A stretch of 64,000 nt of DNA from positions 4,712,001 to 4,776,000 of the forward strand of contig NC_013235.1 of NCBI RefSeq assembly GCF_000024365.1, given 5' to 3'. Shown here one piece after another: positions 1 through 8,100 of the stretch. The DNA comes from Nakamurella multipartita DSM 44233. GTDB lineage: Bacteria; Actinomycetota; Actinomycetes; Mycobacteriales; Nakamurellaceae. The position numbers and the translations under genes are program-made. Each line of letters starts with the position of its first letter. Position 1 is the stretch's first letter. Below the pieces are notes generated by a model that had not been told where the DNA came from, searched no databases, and worked only from the letters and a program-made list of their open reading frames with translations.

Positions 1-306
1 GATCAGGGCCAGCAGCTGCGCGGTGTCGGTGGCCGGGACCACGCTGGGCGGCACCCCGAAGGCGATCGGATCCAGATCGACCGGGTCCAGGAAGCCGCCC
101 CGGCGGCCATAGGTCTTGTCGATCGCCGCCGGGTCGGCGTCGAAGTAGTCGTCGACCAGCCAGTGGGTCGGCGGGACCGGCGTCATCCGATCGGTCCCGG
201 CCAGGATGTCCCGCCAGAAACCGGTGACGTCGGACGAGCCCGGGAACAGCGCCGACACCCCGACCACGGCGATCGGCGGTCTGGTGGTGGTGCCCGGTTG
301 ACTCAT
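1..306 (-). CDS. PfaA-like polyunsaturated fatty acid/polyketide synthase, N-terminal fragment
   Basis: Partial gene: the first 102 codons are inside the window and the rest lies beyond the left edge. The start ATG follows an AAGGA ribosome binding site with an 8-base spacer. After a short tail the protein enters a beta-ketoacyl synthase domain (PIAVVGVSALFPGS, then GFWRDILAG and PPTHWLVDDYFDADP). That last block, with a following KTYGRRGGF, resembles the KS domain of PfaA-type PUFA synthases more than modular polyketide synthases, which is a judgement from memory of the family. It starts 67 bases downstream of the PfaD-family gene on the same strand, and PfaD acts as the enoyl reductase partner of such synthases. 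Expected role: iterative chain extension with malonyl units to a long polyunsaturated acyl chain. The later domains (acyltransferase, ACP repeats, ketoreductase) cannot be seen. Confidence 0.8.
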   Translation of the reverse strand, partial: MSQPGTTTRPPIAVVGVSALFPGSSDVTGFWRDILAGTDRMTPVPPTHWLVDDYFDADPAAIDKTYGRRGGFLDPVDLDPIAFGVPPSVVPATDTAQLLALI

Positions 307-373
307 CGTCGACGTCCTTGTGAAGTAGCTGCGGATGGCCCTGGCTGCCGGCCCGGTCCGGGCCGCCGGGCGG

Positions 374-1993
374 TCACCGCAAGAGCCGGGGACGGTAGGT
401 GAAGGCCTCGGGCGGCACTGCCACCCCGAAGGTGCGCAGCTGCTGGGCCCGGGTCAGCACCGCCGCCCCTTCCATCAGGTTATGCGCGACCTGGCTAACG
501 GTCCGGTTCCCCGGTTCGGCCAGGAACGATCCGGCCGTCCACGCGTTGAACGCACCCATCGCCGGGCCGCACCAGATCTGGTAGTCCAGCCGGCGCTCGG
601 CGCGGCCCTCGATCGACCAGCGGCTGGACAGGCCCAGGTAGCTGCGGAACACCAGCGCCATCCGGTGCCGCGGGTCGGCCTCGGCCCGGCTGACCTGCTC
701 GGGGTCCCGCTCCAGCCAGAACGCGCGGGTCTGCGTCCAGCAGTCGGCGACGGACTGGCCCAGGATCTGCTTCTCCAGGGCGGCCAGCTCCGCCGGGGCG
801 ATCGCCTCCAGGCTGGGATGCGCGCGATAGAGCGCGGAGAGCTTGCGGGCGCGGCTCGCGAACATGGTCCCCCGCCGCAGCACCTGCAGGGACACCCCGA
901 GCTCGAACATGTCGGCGGCCGGTGCCATCGTGACGTCGGCGATGTCCGCGGCGGCCAGCATGGCTTTGGCGTCGGCCGCGATCCCGGCCTCGACGCAGGC
1001 CTGGTTGACCGACCCGGTCAGCACGTAGGACGCGCCCAGGGCGAAGGCCGCGGCCACCGCCTGCGGGGTGCCGATCCCGCCGGCGGCGCCCAACCGAACC
1101 GGACGCCGGTACCCGCGGGCCGCCACCACCTCGTCGCGGACGGCGGCGATGGCGGCGAACAGCGGCGCCAGCGGCCGGTTGTCGGTGTGGCCGCCACTGT
1201 CGCTCTCCACGGTGATGTCCTCGGCGACCGGCAGCCCGGCGGCCAGCCGCGCCTCGTCCGGGGTGAGCCGGCCGGCGTCGACCAGCCCGGCCAGCATCGC
1301 CGCCGGTGCCGGTTCCAGGAATTGCCGGGCCACCTCGGGCCGGGACACCTTGGCGAAGACCATGTTCGGCCGGTGGATGGTGCCGGAAGCGTCGACCCGG
1401 ACGCCGGTGTAGGCGTACCGCACGATCGCCGGGGTGAGCGACATGTACGCGCTGGCCGATACTTTGCGCACCCCACGGGTCAGATACAGCTCGGCCACGG
1501 CCTCTTCGAGGGCCGGTTCGTTCGGCGAGTGGATCAGGTTGCTCCCCCACGCCGTGGACTCGCGGCCCAGGGCGGCGTGCAACTCGTCGATCGCGGCGCC
1601 GACCCGGCCGGCGTCCAACCCGGCCGCCCCGAAGAAGCCCAGGTAGCCGTGGCGGGCCATCTCGATGACCATCGTCGTGGTGGCGATGCCGTTGGCCATC
1701 TCCCCGGCGACGTAGGGGAAACGGACCCCGTGGGTCTGGGTGAAGTTCCGGTCACCGAGCCACTCCGGGTACAGCGGCGGCAGCACCCCGACCAGTCGCA
1801 GCGCACCCGGCGTCTCCGCCGGCACCGCAGCACCCTGCGTGACGACGCCGTGCGCGCCGGTCGCCGGGTTGACGACGACGAACGCGGTGTCCCGGATACG
1901 GTGCGTGAGCGCGGCGACCTCGTTCGGCCCAAAAGCCGGCGTTATCGGCCCGGTCCAGCCGCCCAGTGGCACGGCCGGAGCCTTGTCGAGCAC
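374..1993 (-). CDS. pfaD: PfaD-family enoyl reductase of a PUFA/polyketide synthase
   Basis: The 539-residue protein matches the length and architecture of PfaD, an FMN-dependent TIM-barrel enzyme of the nitronate monooxygenase superfamily that supplies enoyl reduction in trans to PUFA synthases and trans-AT polyketide synthases. Visible landmarks are the barrel start VGVLPPLYPEW, the glycine-rich flavin segment GAAGGIGTPQAVAAAFALGA followed by YVLTGSVNQA, and the conserved C-terminal region around WCGPAMGAFN that is special to PfaD. The GTG start has no ribosome binding site. A TAGGGT -10-like box lies six bases upstream, so translation is probably leaderless. It heads a minus-strand unit with the PfaA-like gene and is divergent from oleA across only 70 bases. 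Confidence 0.9.
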   Translation of the reverse strand: MLDKAPAVPLGGWTGPITPAFGPNEVAALTHRIRDTAFVVVNPATGAHGVVTQGAAVPAETPGALRLVGVLPPLYPEWLGDRNFTQTHGVRFPYVAGEMANGIATTTMVIEMARHGYLGFFGAAGLDAGRVGAAIDELHAALGRESTAWGSNLIHSPNEPALEEAVAELYLTRGVRKVSASAYMSLTPAIVRYAYTGVRVDASGTIHRPNMVFAKVSRPEVARQFLEPAPAAMLAGLVDAGRLTPDEARLAAGLPVAEDITVESDSGGHTDNRPLAPLFAAIAAVRDEVVAARGYRRPVRLGAAGGIGTPQAVAAAFALGASYVLTGSVNQACVEAGIAADAKAMLAAADIADVTMAPAADMFELGVSLQVLRRGTMFASRARKLSALYRAHPSLEAIAPAELAALEKQILGQSVADCWTQTRAFWLERDPEQVSRAEADPRHRMALVFRSYLGLSSRWSIEGRAERRLDYQIWCGPAMGAFNAWTAGSFLAEPGNRTVSQVAHNLMEGAAVLTRAQQLRTFGVAVPPEAFTYRPRLLR

Positions 1994-1999
1994 TCAGTT

Positions 2000-2005
2000 A
2001 CCCTA
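2000..2005 (-). promoter_or_regulatory. -10 box of leaderless pfaD promoter
   Basis: TAGGGT on the minus strand, followed by six bases and the GTG start of pfaD. The spacing fits transcription starting at the start codon. No -35 box is obvious. The same 70-base gap must also hold the oleA promoter on the other strand. Confidence 0.45.
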
Positions 2006-2063
2006 AACCAATGGTTGCGCGGACCCACGATGGCGCGGTTGCCCTCACCGAGCGCAGCCGGGG

Positions 2064-3086
2064 ATGACGGGGAATTCCGACTTCCGCTTTCATGACGTCG
2101 CGATCCTGTCCCTCGACGCCGGTCCGGCCCCGCTGGTGGTCACCTCGGCCGATGTCGACCGGCGGCTGGCCCCGTTCTACGCCCGCACCCGCAGCATGTC
2201 CGGCCTGGTCACCTCGCTGGCCGGCGACTTCGAGCGGCGGCAGTGGCCGGCCGAGGTGTCCTTCATCCAGGCGGCCGCCCGGGCCGGCGAGGCCGCGATC
2301 GCGGCGGCCGGCATCGACCGCGCCCGGATCGGCGTCGTCATCGACACCAGCGTCTCCCGGGCCCGGCTGGAGCCCTCCAGCGCGGTGAGCGTGCACCACC
2401 TGCTCGATCTGCCCCCGAACTGCCTGAACTTCGACGTGTCCAACGCCTGCCTGGGCTTCGTCACCGGGCTGCACCTGGCCGGCGCGCTGATCGACTCCGG
2501 GCAGATCGACTACGCGCTGATCGTCGACGGCGAGGGCACCCGCGAGATCTACGACCGCACCATCGACCGGCTCAACGAACGCGGCGAGGGCCTGCCCGAT
2601 CTGCTGGCCAACTTCGCCACCTTCACCCTCGGCTCGGGTGCGGCCGCGATGGTGCTCGGTCGCCACTCGGCCCATCCGGAGGGACACCAGCTGCTCGACG
2701 GCTTCTTCCGCGCCGAGACCCGCCACCACGAGCTGTGCATCGGCACCATCGACGGGGGCGTCACCGACTCCCGGGCGCTGCTGGAGGCCGGCATCGAGCT
2801 GGCCGGCGCGGCCTGGGCGCAGGCCGGGGCGACCGCCGCGTGGGGCAGCCGGGACCGGTACATCTTTCATCAGGTCTCCGAGGTGCACACCAAGGCGATG
2901 ATCCGCACCCTGGGCGTCGATCCGGCCAAGGTGCCGACGACGTTCGCCCGGTACGGCAACATCGGTCCGGCGGCCATCCCGATCACGCTGGCCACCGTGG
3001 CCGACGAGCTGAGCCCGGGCGATATCGTCCTGTGCATGGGGATCGGCTCGGGCCTGAACGTCGGGGTCATCGAACTCCGGTGGTAG
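2064..3086 (+). CDS. oleA: OleA, thiolase-fold enzyme for head-to-head acyl-CoA condensation
   Basis: The 340-residue protein has the FabH/thiolase fold of OleA, which joins two fatty acyl-CoA molecules by non-decarboxylative Claisen condensation to a 2-alkyl-3-ketoacid, the first step of long-chain olefin synthesis. Seen in the sequence: the nucleophile in SNACLGF (Cys129), a catalytic histidine in IFHQVSEVH (His269) and an asparagine in RYGNIG (Asn299), together the Cys-His-Asn triad. The sequence context (ALIVDGEGTREIYDRTI) resembles OleA more than fatty-acid FabH. It is the first gene of an oleA-oleBC-oleD operon, and its stop codon overlaps the GTG of oleBC. The upstream partner on the other strand is pfaD, so polyunsaturated acyl chains are a likely substrate (inference). 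Confidence 0.92.
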   Translation: MTGNSDFRFHDVAILSLDAGPAPLVVTSADVDRRLAPFYARTRSMSGLVTSLAGDFERRQWPAEVSFIQAAARAGEAAIAAAGIDRARIGVVIDTSVSRARLEPSSAVSVHHLLDLPPNCLNFDVSNACLGFVTGLHLAGALIDSGQIDYALIVDGEGTREIYDRTIDRLNERGEGLPDLLANFATFTLGSGAAAMVLGRHSAHPEGHQLLDGFFRAETRHHELCIGTIDGGVTDSRALLEAGIELAGAAWAQAGATAAWGSRDRYIFHQVSEVHTKAMIRTLGVDPAKVPTTFARYGNIGPAAIPITLATVADELSPGDIVLCMGIGSGLNVGVIELRW

Positions 3087-5707
3087 CCCCCACCGTCCCC
3101 CCGGCCCCCGCCCGTCGGCCGCCGGCCGATCTCGACGGCCTCGATCCGGCCTGGTCCCGGCTGGTCCGGGTGCCGGGCACCGACGGCGTCGGCCGCACCT
3201 GGCACCTGCTGGACAACCGGACGGCGGATCCGGCGCTGACCCTGCTGTGCGTGCACGGCAACCCGTCCTGGTCCTACCTGTTCCGCTCGCTGCTGCGGCA
3301 GGCCCCGCCGCGGGTCCGGGTGATCGCGGTCGACCAGCTGGACATGGGCTTTTCCGAGCGCACCGGCCGGTTGCGGCGGGCCGGCGATCGGATCGACGAG
3401 CTGACCGAACTGACCGACGAGCTGCGCCTGACCGGCCCGGTGGTCACCGTCGGGCACGACTGGGGCGGCGCGATCTCGCTCGGCTGGGCGTTGCGGCACC
3501 GGGACCGGCTGGCCGGCGTGGTGCTGACCAACACCGCGGTCAGCGGCACCCGGGGGCCCGCGGTCATCCGGCTGGTCCGGTCCCGCTGGCTGCTGCCGAC
3601 CCTGACCGTGCGCTCGACCGCGTTCATCGACGGCGCGCTGGCCATGTCGCACCCGCGGCTGCGCGGCCCGGTCCGGCGGGCGTTCCGCGCCCCCTACCGG
3701 TCGGCCGACCGGCGGGCCGCGATCGAGGACTTCGTCGCCGACATCCCGATCGAGACCGACCATCCCAGCGCGGCCGTGCTCGACGGCATCGCCGGCGGCC
3801 TGGACGCCCTGAGCCGGGTGCCGGTGCTGATGATGTGGGGCGCGGCCGACCCGGTGTTCTCCGACACCTACCTGCACGACCTGGAGCGGCGGCTGCCGCA
3901 CGCCGACGTGCACCGGTACGCCCGGGCCGGGCACCTGCTGCCCGAGGACGCCGACGTGGCCGGCGTGGTCGTGGACTGGATCTCCACCCTGGGCCGGCGG
4001 CGGCCGGACCGGGCCGCCGCCGAACCGGTCCACGCGGCGGTCACCCACGAACCGGCTACCGACGAACTGATCACCGACGAACCGTCCACCCTGCCCGACC
4101 CGCACGGCGAGCTGGGCGACCGGCCGGCGATCCTCGAGCTGGGGGCGCCGGGCCGGCCGGCCGGCGCCCGCTCCGTGACCTTCGGCGAATTCGCCGACCT
4201 GGTCGGGCGGACCGCGGCCGGCCTGGGGCACACCGGGGTGCGCCCCGGCGATCGGGTCGCGCTGATGATCCCGCCGGGCATCGATCTGGCCGTGACCCTG
4301 TACGCGTGCTGGCGGATCGGTGCGGTCGCCGTGCTGATCGATTCCGGTCTCGGCCCGGCCGGCATGAGCGCGGCGATCCGGGCCGCCGCCCCGGCGTATC
4401 TGGTCGGCATCCCGAAGGCGCTGGTCGCGGCGCGCGCGCTGCGCTGGCCCGGCCGCCGGATCAGCACCCGCACCCTGCGGGCCCCCGGGCTGCTCGACGT
4501 CGTCGGCGACCTGCCGACCCTGCGGACCGCGACCGCCCCGCTGCCCCCGCCCCCGACCACCGCGGACGAGGCCGCCGTCGTCTTCACCTCCGGGGCCACC
4601 GGACCGTCCAAGGGCGTGCGGTACACCCACGGCCGGCTGACCGCGCAGCGCGACGTGCTCGCCGGCCTGTACGACGTGACCCCCGACGACCGGCTGGTCG
4701 CCGCGTTCGCGCCGTTCGCGCTCTACGGCCCGGCGGCCGGCATCCCGTCGGTGGTACCCGACATGGACGTCGCCCGGCCGGGCACGCTGACCGCCACCGC
4801 CCTGGGCGACGCCGCAGTCGCGGTCGACGCGACGCTGGTGTTCGCCTCCCCCGCCGCGCTGGCGAACGTGGTGGCCACCCGCGACGCGCTGACCGAGGCG
4901 CACCGGGCCGCCTTCGCCCGGGTGCGGCTGCTGCTGTCGGCCGGGGCCCCGGTCCGCCCGTCCCTGCTGGCCGCCGCGGCCGAGCTGTTTCCCAACGCGG
5001 CCGCGCACACGCCGTACGGGATGACCGAGTGCCTGCCGGTGGCCACCATCAGCCTGGCCGAGATCCGGGCGGCGACCGGCGGCGACGGGGTGTGCGTCGG
5101 CTCGCCCGCGCCCGGGGTCGCCGTGCGGATCCGTCGGCTGGACGAGCGAGGCCGGCCCACCGGGGACCTGCTCGAGCAGCCCGACGTGCTCGGCGAGGTG
5201 GTGGTGCGGGCCGCGCACGCCCGCGCCGGGTACGACCGGCTCTGGCACACCGAGTTCCTCGCCTCGCAGCCGGCCGGCTGGCACGCCACCGGCGACGTCG
5301 GCCGGCTCGACCGGGCCGGGCGGCTGTGGATCGGCGGCCGGCTGGGGCACGTCATCACCACCCCGGACGGCCCGGTCGCGCCGGTCGGGCTGGAGCAGGC
5401 CGTCGAGGACCTGCCCGGCGTCCGGGCCGCGGCCGTGGTCGGGGTCGGGCCGGTCGGCGCCCAGCAGCTCGTGGTGCTGCTCACCGTGGACCCCGATGGC
5501 CGGTTCGATCCGCCGAGCCGGCCCCGGTTGGCCGGGCTGGACCGGCTCGACCAGGTCCGCGCGGTGGCCGGCGACCGGGACGTCGTTGCCGTGTTCGAGC
5601 TGCCCCGGCTGCCGGTCGATCGGCGGCACAACTCCAAGATCGACCGCACCCGGCTGGCCGGCTGGGCCGCGCGCGCCCTGCAGGGCCGCCGGCCCCGCAC
5701 GCCGTGA
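3080..5707 (+). CDS. oleBC: OleBC fusion: beta-lactone decarboxylase plus beta-lactone synthetase
   Basis: Natural two-domain fusion of about 875 residues, a form known from actinobacteria such as Micrococcus. Residues about 25-300 are an alpha/beta-hydrolase of the haloalkane-dehalogenase type. The nucleophile elbow is GHDWGG with an aspartate (Asp127), as expected for OleB, which decarboxylates a beta-lactone to a cis-olefin. After a Pro/Thr/Glu-rich linker (about 305-350), the C-terminal part is an AMP-binding OleC enzyme with the loop FTSGATGPSKGV (about 500-511) and a HTPYGMTE motif. OleC makes the beta-lactone from the beta-hydroxy acid with ATP. The GTG start at 3080 overlaps the oleA stop (GTGGTAG), which indicates translational coupling. 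The stop overlaps the oleD start by three bases. Confidence 0.92.
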   Translation: MVAPTVPPAPARRPPADLDGLDPAWSRLVRVPGTDGVGRTWHLLDNRTADPALTLLCVHGNPSWSYLFRSLLRQAPPRVRVIAVDQLDMGFSERTGRLRRAGDRIDELTELTDELRLTGPVVTVGHDWGGAISLGWALRHRDRLAGVVLTNTAVSGTRGPAVIRLVRSRWLLPTLTVRSTAFIDGALAMSHPRLRGPVRRAFRAPYRSADRRAAIEDFVADIPIETDHPSAAVLDGIAGGLDALSRVPVLMMWGAADPVFSDTYLHDLERRLPHADVHRYARAGHLLPEDADVAGVVVDWISTLGRRRPDRAAAEPVHAAVTHEPATDELITDEPSTLPDPHGELGDRPAILELGAPGRPAGARSVTFGEFADLVGRTAAGLGHTGVRPGDRVALMIPPGIDLAVTLYACWRIGAVAVLIDSGLGPAGMSAAIRAAAPAYLVGIPKALVAARALRWPGRRISTRTLRAPGLLDVVGDLPTLRTATAPLPPPPTTADEAAVVFTSGATGPSKGVRYTHGRLTAQRDVLAGLYDVTPDDRLVAAFAPFALYGPAAGIPSVVPDMDVARPGTLTATALGDAAVAVDATLVFASPAALANVVATRDALTEAHRAAFARVRLLLSAGAPVRPSLLAAAAELFPNAAAHTPYGMTECLPVATISLAEIRAATGGDGVCVGSPAPGVAVRIRRLDERGRPTGDLLEQPDVLGEVVVRAAHARAGYDRLWHTEFLASQPAGWHATGDVGRLDRAGRLWIGGRLGHVITTPDGPVAPVGLEQAVEDLPGVRAAAVVGVGPVGAQQLVVLLTVDPDGRFDPPSRPRLAGLDRLDQVRAVAGDRDVVAVFELPRLPVDRRHNSKIDRTRLAGWAARALQGRRPRTP

Positions 5708-6678
5708 AGGTCCTGGTCACCGGGGCCACCAGCCTGGTCGGGCGGGTGACCGTCCGGCGCCTGGTGGACCGGGGCGACGAGGTCACCACCCTGCAGCGCG
5801 GGACCACCGACCTGCCCGGACGCGCGCTCCGCGGCTCGCTCACCGACCCGGATGCCGTGGAACGGGCCTGCGCCGGGCAGGACGCCGTCATTCACCTGGC
5901 CGCCCGGGTCGGCGCGGCCGGCCCGTGGTCCGAGTTCGAACGGGTCAACGTCACCGGCACCGCCAATCTGCTGGCCGCCGCCCGCCGGGCCGGGGCCGGG
6001 GCGTTCGTGCACGTCTCGTCGCCGTCGGTGGCCCATGCCGGGCGCTCCCTGGTCGGCGCCGAGGCCGATCCGGCGAACCCGGCGACCGCCCGCGGCGCCT
6101 ACGCCCGGAGCAAGGCGCTGGGCGAGCGGGCCGCCCTGGCGGCCTCGTCGCCGGCGATGCCGGTGGTGGTGCTGCGTCCGCACCTGATCTGGGGACCGGG
6201 CGACACCCAGCTGGTCGGCCGGGTGGTGGACCGGGCCCGGCGCGGCCGCCTGGCCCTCGTCGGCCCCGGCACCGCCCTGGTCGACACCCTGTACGTGGAC
6301 AACGCCGCGGACGCGCTGGTGGCCGCGCTGGATCAGGCCCCCCGGCTGGGTGGGCGGGTGTTCGTCCTGTCCAACGGGCAGCCGCGCACGGCGGCCGAAC
6401 TGACCGCCCGGGTGCTGGCCGCGGCCGGCCTGACCGTGACCCCCCGGCACGTCCCGAGGTGGCTGGCCGTCGCGGGCGGGTCGCTGGTCGAGCAGGTCTG
6501 GGCGCGCACCGGCCGCACCGACGATCCGCCGATGACCCGGTTCCTGGCCGAGCAGCTGGCCACCGCGCACTGGTTCCGCCAGGCCCCCGCCCAGGCCGCC
6601 CTGCACTGGCGGCCGGCGGTCGGCCTGGACGAGGGCTTCGCCCGGTTGGCCGACTGGTTCCGGTCCGGACGGGTCTGA
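5704..6678 (+). CDS. oleD: OleD, NADPH-dependent 2-alkyl-3-ketoacid reductase
   Basis: A 324-residue extended short-chain dehydrogenase. The N terminus VKVLVTGATSLVGRV is the NAD(P)-binding Rossmann motif, and YARSKALGE supplies the YxxxK catalytic pair. OleD reduces the OleA product to the 2-alkyl-3-hydroxy acid that OleC closes to a beta-lactone. The chosen GTG overlaps the oleBC stop (GTGA), so the three genes are one translationally coupled operon. The family also contains 3-beta-hydroxysteroid dehydrogenases and sugar epimerases; the position directly after oleA and oleBC decides the assignment. A GC-rich hairpin 55 bases after the stop probably ends the transcript. Confidence 0.9.
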   Translation: MKVLVTGATSLVGRVTVRRLVDRGDEVTTLQRGTTDLPGRALRGSLTDPDAVERACAGQDAVIHLAARVGAAGPWSEFERVNVTGTANLLAAARRAGAGAFVHVSSPSVAHAGRSLVGAEADPANPATARGAYARSKALGERAALAASSPAMPVVVLRPHLIWGPGDTQLVGRVVDRARRGRLALVGPGTALVDTLYVDNAADALVAALDQAPRLGGRVFVLSNGQPRTAAELTARVLAAAGLTVTPRHVPRWLAVAGGSLVEQVWARTGRTDDPPMTRFLAEQLATAHWFRQAPAQAALHWRPAVGLDEGFARLADWFRSGRV

Positions 6679-6732: not shown

Positions 6733-6756
6733 GGCCGGCGCCCTCAGCCGCCGGCC
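6733..6756. terminator. Bidirectional hairpin between oleD and the HxlR gene
   Basis: Eight-base arms GGCCGGCG and CGCCGGCC enclose an eight-base loop that contains the stop codon of the convergent HxlR gene. There is no U-tract, which is usual in this GC range. It could end transcripts from both directions. Confidence 0.5.
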
Positions 6757-7172
6757 CGGGCCCGGGCGGCCAGCACCTGCGCAACGTTGCGCTCGGCCCA
6801 GGCCCGGACGGCGTTGATCGGTTCGAGCAACGACAGGCCGAGCGGGGTGAGCCGGTACTCCACCCGGGGCGGCATCTCGGCGAAGGCCCGGCGCGCGACC
6901 AGTCCGTCGGTCTCCAATGCCCGCAGGGTCTCGGTGAGCACCTTCGGGGTGATACCGCCGATGTGGTTCTTGAGTTGGGTGAACCGCAGCGGACGCGCGC
7001 TCAGGGCGGCGATCACGAACATCGACCAGCGGTCGCCGATCCGCTGCAGGATGACCCGGCTCGGGCAGTCGACGGCGAACACGTCGAAGCTCGCATCGGT
7101 GGTCGGGTCCATGGTTGATTCGGACGTGGTCGGTCCGGGCGTGGTCGATTCGGGCGTGATGACCTCGCGCAT
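6744..7172 (-). CDS. HxlR-family winged-helix regulator
   Basis: HxlR/MarR-like dimeric DNA-binding protein of 142 residues. The core starts with the conserved cysteine in VDCPSRVILQRIGDRW, followed by the winged-helix FTQLKNHIGGITPKVLTETLRALETDGLV and the wing PPRVEYRLTPLG. That Cys is often used by family members to sense electrophiles or redox change. Start choice: the ATG at 7172 is preceded by GAGG with a 5-base spacer, while the shorter start at 7112 has none. The N-terminal tail (about 30 residues) is rich in Thr, Ser and Pro and of unknown use. It is divergent from an epimerase-like gene, the usual arrangement for HxlR regulators that control their neighbour. Confidence 0.88.
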   Translation of the reverse strand: MREVITPESTTPGPTTSESTMDPTTDASFDVFAVDCPSRVILQRIGDRWSMFVIAALSARPLRFTQLKNHIGGITPKVLTETLRALETDGLVARRAFAEMPPRVEYRLTPLGLSLLEPINAVRAWAERNVAQVLAARARAGG

Positions 7173-7207
7173 GGTTACCTCGGGGTGATCGGGTTCCGTT
7201 GAAGTAA

Positions 7208-7228
7208 TTGGTATCCAATTCATACCAT
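7208..7228. promoter_or_regulatory. Inverted repeats and -10 box between HxlR and reductase genes
   Basis: The divergent gap holds two overlapping inverted repeats: ATTGG-TAT-CCAAT and TGGTAT-N7-ATACCA. Both are AT-rich against the background and are good candidates for the HxlR operator. The distal arm includes TACCAT (7223-7228), eight bases before the ATG at 7237, which looks like the -10 box of a leaderless promoter. A bound regulator would block that promoter. Confidence 0.5.
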
Positions 7229-7236
7229 CAGGTTCC

Positions 7237-8100
7237 ATGAAGATCATCATCACCGGCGGGACCGGTTTCATCGGCAGTGCTGTGCTGGATCGTCTCCTCG
7301 CCCGCGACCACGACGTCATCGCCCTCGTCCGCAGCGATCAGGCGGCCGCCGCCGTGGCCGGCCGCGGGGCCACTGCGGTCATCGGCGACCTCACCGACCC
7401 GGATTGGCTGACCGGGCACCTCGCGCACGGCGACGGGGCCATCCATGCCGCCGCGGCCGGCGACGGCACCGACGCCGACCTCGACGCCGGCGTCGTCAAG
7501 GCGGTCGGCCATGCGTTCGGCGGCACCGGCCGCCCCTACCTGCACACCGGCGGCATCTGGCTCTACGGCGCCAACCGGCACATCACCGAGCAGTCCCCGG
7601 TCGACCCGCCGGCCATCGTGGCCTGGCGGGTGCCGGTCGAGCAGTCCCTGCTCGGCGCGGACGTGGCTGCCACGGTGGTCGTCCCCGGGATCGTCTACGG
7701 CCACGGCCGCGGCATCCCGGCCCTGGTCGCCGGCGGTCCGCGCACTGAGGACGGCGCCCTGACCCTGATCGGCGACGGCCGGCAGCACTGGGTGACCGTG
7801 CACGTCGACGACCTGGCCGAGCTGTATGTGCAGCTGCTTGAGCAGGGCTCGGGCTTCGGTCACGTCGTCGCCGCCGCGCCGGGCAATCCGACCGTGCGTG
7901 AGCTGGCCGCGGCGGTGGCCGGCCCGGCCGGGGTGGCGGCCCAGGACGTCGCCGGCACCCGGGCCCGGTTGGGCGCTTCGTTCGCCGACGCGTTGCTGAT
8001 CGACCAGGGCGCGGACGCGGCCCGGGCCCGGGCGCTGGGCTGGGCGCCGCGACGACCCAGCCTGCTGGACGAGTTCACCCGGGGGTCCTACGCCGGGTGA
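7237..8100 (+). CDS. NAD(P)-dependent epimerase/reductase-like protein (atypical SDR)
   Basis: The 287-residue Rossmann protein opens with MKIIITGGTGFIGSAVLDRL, the extended/atypical SDR nucleotide-binding motif. I do not see a YxxxK active site at the usual position: the region after HTGGIWLYGAN reads through to VPVEQSLL. It therefore belongs with atypical SDRs of the NmrA or nucleoside-diphosphate-sugar-epimerase-like group, which reduce small carbonyls or only bind NADPH. It is divergent from and probably regulated by the HxlR protein, a common pairing in which the reductase detoxifies the electrophile sensed by the regulator. The substrate is unknown. Confidence 0.75.
   Translation: MKIIITGGTGFIGSAVLDRLLARDHDVIALVRSDQAAAAVAGRGATAVIGDLTDPDWLTGHLAHGDGAIHAAAAGDGTDADLDAGVVKAVGHAFGGTGRPYLHTGGIWLYGANRHITEQSPVDPPAIVAWRVPVEQSLLGADVAATVVVPGIVYGHGRGIPALVAGGPRTEDGALTLIGDGRQHWVTVHVDDLAELYVQLLEQGSGFGHVVAAAPGNPTVRELAAAVAGPAGVAAQDVAGTRARLGASFADALLIDQGADAARARALGWAPRRPSLLDEFTRGSYAG

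Follow-up and report, generated by a model that had tools for sequence, protein, structure and literature searches.

At the left end of a 64,000-base stretch of the genome of Nakamurella multipartita Y-104T (DSM 44233), the genes of a putative Type L polyunsaturated fatty acid (PUFA) synthase and those of a putative olefin (ole) operon lie back to back. This stretch, termed the window, covers positions 4712001-4776000 of a genome that is a single contig of 6,060,298 bases. N. multipartita is an aerobic Gram-positive bacterium of activated sludge. There is about an even chance that polyunsaturated chains made by the synthase are passed to OleA, OleB, OleC and OleD and end in a long polyunsaturated olefin, another share leaving through an acyltransferase (AGPAT) domain of the synthase itself. 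If OleA does draw on the synthase, an aerobic Gram-positive would join the makers of polyunsaturated hydrocarbons. The locus would then be a compact test case, with one type strain of complete genome sequence and one short control region, and would illustrate the division of a product between a second pathway and the acyltransferase that the synthase itself carries.

A sequence-only reading of the window had proposed that pfaD and the start of PfaA stand 70 bases from a divergent oleA-oleBC-oleD set, and this is borne out by profile matches and by the ends of the open reading frames (Table 1). By gene position, the pfa and ole genes occupy one locus, as in a linked pfa-ole hydrocarbon locus. 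The pfa genes run leftwards and the ole genes rightwards, an arrangement that is divergent and not the co-directional tandem of the Geobacter type.

Table 1. Features of the pfa-ole locus of N. multipartita. Coordinates are those of the window; left of it they are the genome position minus 4,712,000, 0 being the base just left of base 1.
Feature	Coordinates	Strand	Properties
pfaBC fusion	-13876..-5228	-	2882 aa; 4-base overlap with pfaA; KS, CLF, AT, FabA-type DHs, AGPAT, C-terminal PS-DH
pfaA start	1..306	-	whole gene -5231..306, same contig; 1845 aa; KS-AT-2xACP-KR
pfaD, enoyl reductase	374..1993	-	539 aa; TIGR02814, 618.4 bits (cut-off 449.25)
divergent intergenic region common to pfa and ole genes	1994..2063	.	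70 bases, from ORF ends
oleA, head-to-head acyl condensing thiolase	2064..3086	+	340 aa; NF006720, 411.4 bits (cut-off 285)
oleBC fusion, beta-lactone decarboxylase and beta-lactone synthetase	3083..5707	+	874 aa; PF00561 and PF00501 in one protein
oleD, 2-alkyl-3-oxoalkanoate reductase	5704..6678	+	324 aa; best NCBIfam match NF042422 (OleD) across full length, 297.8 bits, under the curated cut-off of 580

The length of the pfaD-oleA gap presumes that pfaD starts at its first GTG; another GTG follows in frame at codon 8. A sigma-70 promoter scan of 1994-2063 gave no consensus-like site, although such a scan covers actinobacterial promoters poorly. The hexamer TAGGGT is present on the minus strand at 2000-2005, 6 bases before the pfaD GTG, and TACCCT at 1999-2004 forms a similar box towards oleA. 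Possibly these represent a common -10 box for both directions with a leaderless pfaD, but motifs this short are expected by chance.

The sequence-only reading had asked whether the remaining pfa functions lie left of the window. The rest of pfaA and a pfaBC fusion are indeed found there; a phosphopantetheinyl transferase (PPTase) is not, as none is present in the locus and none of four PF01648 matches genome-wide lies within 280 kb. The alternative raised in the sequence-only reading, an unrelated modular polyketide pathway in the left flank, is ruled out, since the genes of this flank supply the remaining Pfa synthase domains. In a profile search, whole PfaA matches TIGR02813 with 1339.2 bits (cut-off 1010.1), and its Pfam domains are KS, AT, two PP-binding stretches (tandem ACPs) and KR, with two DSIK carrier motifs. 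PfaBC has matches to PF00109 (two stretches), PF02801, PF00698, PF07977 (three stretches), PF01553, PF14765 and PF21089. The second KS-like unit is read as a CLF, there are three FabA stretches, and a PS-DH is at the C-terminal end. The score of PfaBC with the NCBIfam PfaB model, 42.2, is under the cut-off of 144.3. The AGPAT match (PF01553, residues 2324-2458) is weak, at 24.1 bits versus a cut-off of 23. The domain displays two motifs, EGTR and one of NHQVxxES type; the latter is also found in myxobacterial relatives, and Paenibacillus has it as NHQTAVES. AGPAT domain matches are present as well near PfaD in Paenibacillus (L048, L055) and Mycobacterium intermedium (L066). No match to a PfaT-like thioesterase was found among the 17 protein entries scanned, in which the biotin carboxylase and a P450-like protein are entered twice.

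With pfaD at the 5' end of the cluster, a PfaA of the form KS-AT-tandem ACP-KR, and a fused pfaBC carrying KS-CLF, DH and AT, the synthase is classed from its domains as a polyunsaturated fatty acid synthase of Type L (PfaD-PfaA-PfaBC), complete save for the carrier-activating enzyme and with a predicted product. Likewise, oleA-oleBC-oleD reads as a complete ole operon, with a 4-base overlap of frames at both the oleA/oleBC and the oleBC/oleD junctions. OleA belongs to the actinobacterial type found together with oleBC fusions. It aligns over its full length with chain 3row_A (E 2.4e-73), and LEPS, NAC, HQVS and GNIG (the Cys, His, Asn and Glu set) align with 3row; we take these residues to be the catalytic set. 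A motif check found the motifs of KS, AT, ACP, AGPAT, OleA, OleB, OleC and OleD in the proteins of the locus, where their residues presumably have the usual catalytic roles.

The principle of a pfa-ole hydrocarbon pathway is already in print, in the Geobacter tandem and in Shewanella co-expression (PMC4882568; PMC6463001, as far as their available text goes). Geobacter bemidjiensis has a pfaDABC-oleABCD-pfaE tandem and makes C31:9 (PMC4882568). It resembles the window in holding Pfa and Ole genes in one locus, but the tandem includes pfaE, whereas the window pair is divergent and has no PPTase. When Shewanella pealeana pfaA-E and oleA are expressed together in Escherichia coli, a 31:8 ketone is formed; its authors make the case that OleA acts on the Pfa carrier domains (PMC6463001). 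In the Shewanella hentriacontanonaene system OleA is thus reported to act on Pfa-bound chains, as is proposed for the window. The Shewanella synthase is of Type A, with separate pfaB, pfaC and pfaE, unlike the Type L synthase of the window with its fused pfaBC, and in Shewanella the two gene sets lie apart.

Nor is the idea new for this strain. Shulse and Allen (2011) name N. multipartita DSM 44233 as having Type L and ole genes, and suggest that Type L may contribute to olefins; the pfaD-first order and fused pfaBC are the same as in the window, but the divergent 70-base arrangement does not appear in the text available (PMC3098273). The pfa1-pfa2-pfa3 clusters of Aetherobacter and Minicystis are like the window in gene order, in an AGPAT in the PfaC homologue and in a PPTase located elsewhere. 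They differ in that Pfa2 ends in a PS-DH, which the window PfaA lacks and which closes PfaBC instead (PMC8436480, PMC6731297). In the available text of a 2016 review, AGPAT is confined to myxobacterial Type L clusters (PMC4882568), in contrast to the actinobacterial PfaBC described here. No description of the divergent pfaD/oleA arrangement of N. multipartita was found in open literature text. No hydrocarbon data for the strain were found in the literature, and Nakamurella is not mentioned in the main text of PMC7158056, on olefins in Gram-positives, or of PMC7064751. The locus is real and complete, and plausible as one for polyunsaturated hydrocarbons, but it adds another example to an idea already published, in a strain already named for it.

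Linkage of pfa and ole genes was surveyed with the best 80 of 561 PfaD relatives, which come from 79 genomes (L025 and L060 are one genome). OleA (E 1e-60) is found in 24 of the 79, as 18 of 40 plus 6 of 40, and in nine of these 24 pfa genes are near ole genes on the same contig. In G650, G684 and G663 the linked pfa set is the one found by the PfaD search, and probably likewise in G672. In the other five (G656, G636, G632, G630, G665) the linked synthase is another pfa set than that by which the genome entered the survey, and its PfaC is 34-40% identical to that of the window. The remaining 15 genomes show no pfa gene in the fetched stretch around ole, some of the contigs being very short (3.4 and 5 kb). 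Compared with a guessed frequency of 1%, 9 of 24 gives a crude binomial value of 1.1e-12, which assumes independent rows, and these are not independent. The survey agrees with Shulse and Allen, who report that 44 of 80 genomes carrying synthases of this kind have ole genes and describe the two as often linked (PMC3098273, available text). When the linked cases, the window among them, are placed on a 33-row OleA tree, they form four separate groups, and the window OleA is outside the clade that holds five of the nine.

Several single records deserve mention. In Myxococcota MAG.430 (L034:5133-14734) the ole genes immediately precede pfaD-pfaA and run in the same direction, which is a closer pairing than that of the window. 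A Vicinamibacteria MAG (L043:3529-4512 and L259) has an OleD gene beside pfaD; its oleA, oleB and oleC are on another contig, in which no oleD turned up. Genes for Pfa proteins also occur in two MAG records under the title Klebsiella pneumoniae (L069, L044); for L069 this title looks wrong, as its PfaD clusters with a Myxococcales MAG.

Whether the pairing itself recurs had also been at issue: linkage does, as above, but neither the 16 genus-mates, none of which has PfaD over cut-off, nor 150 genomes of family f43, which is taken to be Ilumatobacteraceae, showed the divergent pfaD/oleA pair. OleA is over cut-off in 8 of the 16 genus-mates, and around it only ole genes match the window neighbourhood, plus a weak mtrA match in one. 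In a set of 101 genomes, the strain's own and 100 relatives, PfaD is over cut-off in 12 and OleA in 19. Three have both (G000, G023, G075); in G023 and G075 the two are on different contigs, those of G023 too short to judge linkage. Across 396 genomes of the phylum, PfaD (E 1e-60) is found in 10 and OleA (E 1e-40) in 24, with both in G000 and G209. In f43, OleA is present in 59 genomes, PfaD in six, and both in four (G209, G512, G526, G538), either on different contigs or, in the closed genome G209, 1.15 Mb apart. G209 is taken to be Ilumatobacter coccineum YM16-304T, whose PfaD is 69% identical to that of the window and whose gene order, pfaD-pfaA-pfaBC, is the same (PMC3910706, available text). 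Unlike the window, it has a PfaBC of 2399 aa without AGPAT, and its ole operon is at the distance given. Both Ilumatobacteraceae PfaBC proteins with the end covered lack AGPAT, thus the window synthase differs from these near relatives by its own acyltransferase.

The nearest OleA sequences, 66-69% identical, are those of six genomes of genus g81; genus-mates show only 51-54%. In the OleA tree the window joins the six at full support, apart from a clade of eight Nakamurella OleAs, and vertical descent of oleA within Nakamurella is rejected (window forced with genus-mates, AU p 3.7e-66). The window PfaD shares 67-71% identity with PfaD of the Ilumatobacter type, and it clusters at support 99 with eight rows, namely six Ilumatobacteraceae, one Acidimicrobiales MAG and one MAG labelled Granulosicoccaceae. 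Since both proteins group with Ilumatobacteraceae-type sequences, both gene sets appear to have been acquired from Ilumatobacteraceae-like sources, an affinity foreign to the genus. Of the six genomes whose OleA is closest, five gave no PfaD match, and two of these five are single-contig; among 10 g81 genomes, one has PfaD. Special acceleration of OleA, which would have hinted at a new substrate, was considered and rejected, since the mean tree distance to genus-mates is 1.333 for the window against 1.302 for g81. Between/within distance ratios, window versus g81, are 2.6 for OleA, 1.05 for OleBC and 1.58 for OleD, and the OleA and OleBC trees disagree on the depth of the split.

In the proposed pathway, a PPTase encoded elsewhere in the genome would activate the two PfaA carrier domains, and the synthase would build a polyunsaturated chain. 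OleA would join two such chains, or one of them and an ordinary chain, after which OleD, OleC and OleB would convert the condensation product to a long polyunsaturated olefin. The AGPAT of PfaBC would probably divert another share to lysophosphatidate. With this exit beside OleA, output would be split between membrane lipid and hydrocarbon. By analogy with the S. pealeana co-expression, the window ole operon could use the Pfa product. Judged from gene position, the hand-over from synthase to OleA may be direct. The complete genes and domains, the motifs, the linkage in other genomes, the common Ilumatobacteraceae-type affinity and the published Shewanella and Geobacter cases count for the proposed pathway. 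Counted against it are the synthase's own AGPAT, the published fatty acid profile and the PfaD-less genomes among those with the nearest OleA, all three of which also speak against direct hand-over. The lack of the pair in genus-mates, the position of the window outside the main linked OleA clade and the lack of a special OleA rate change count against the pathway too. That profile, in its available text, names iso-C16:0, iso-C15:0, C18:1, C16:0, anteiso-C15:0, iso-C17:0 and anteiso-C17:0, which sum to 82.6%, and no PUFA (PMC3035273); this argues against large PUFA incorporation in that culture and is silent on neutral hydrocarbons. A more specific form, in which one Type L synthase, in a locus put together from Ilumatobacteraceae-like operons, feeds both AGPAT and a divergently expressed OleA and the 70-base region sets the balance between them, is rather unlikely.

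An appreciable chance, well short of even, is given to two independent pathways. Here the Pfa product would go to glycerolipids via AGPAT, OleA would make branched olefins from the iso chains of the host, and the neighbourhood would be a by-product of acquisition. The AGPAT motifs are consistent with this, as are the mostly PfaD-less nearest OleA relatives, an OleA of the type that accompanies oleBC fusions, and host fatty acids that are mainly iso-C16:0 and iso-C15:0 (PMC3035273, available text). It is at odds with a pfa-ole linkage that recurs far above the guessed 1% (P about 1e-12, on an assumption of row independence that does not hold) and with the same taxonomic affinity of the two sets here. 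It is improbable that the locus is silent, or expressed only under special conditions such as cold or starvation, with neither product seen in standard culture. The profile without a named PUFA would fit, and so would a gap without a consensus promoter, given a scan poorly suited to actinobacteria, but the large genes have intact open frames and motifs, which argues for selection. Least credible, with a very small chance, is a synthase product other than a PUFA, such as a polyene or a special glycerolipid chain, with OleA unrelated or using that chain. One paper counts Type L with those synthase types whose products are uncharacterized (PMC3098273, available text), and the PS-DH ends PfaBC rather than PfaA; yet myxobacterial clusters placed in Type L by a review make EPA and DHA (PMC4882568, available text).

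Other genes adjoin the locus. At 6744-8100 an HxlR-type regulator faces the oleD end, and an SDR gene on the other strand overlaps the regulator start. A few kb past pfaBC, at -23058..-17748, are acyl-CoA carboxylase genes (carboxyltransferase, Maf, biotin carboxylase), which might provide malonyl-CoA. Further left, -30448..-23261 encodes a large protein, 2395 aa by frame, with 13 DUF5979 stretches in the scanned 2246-aa part.
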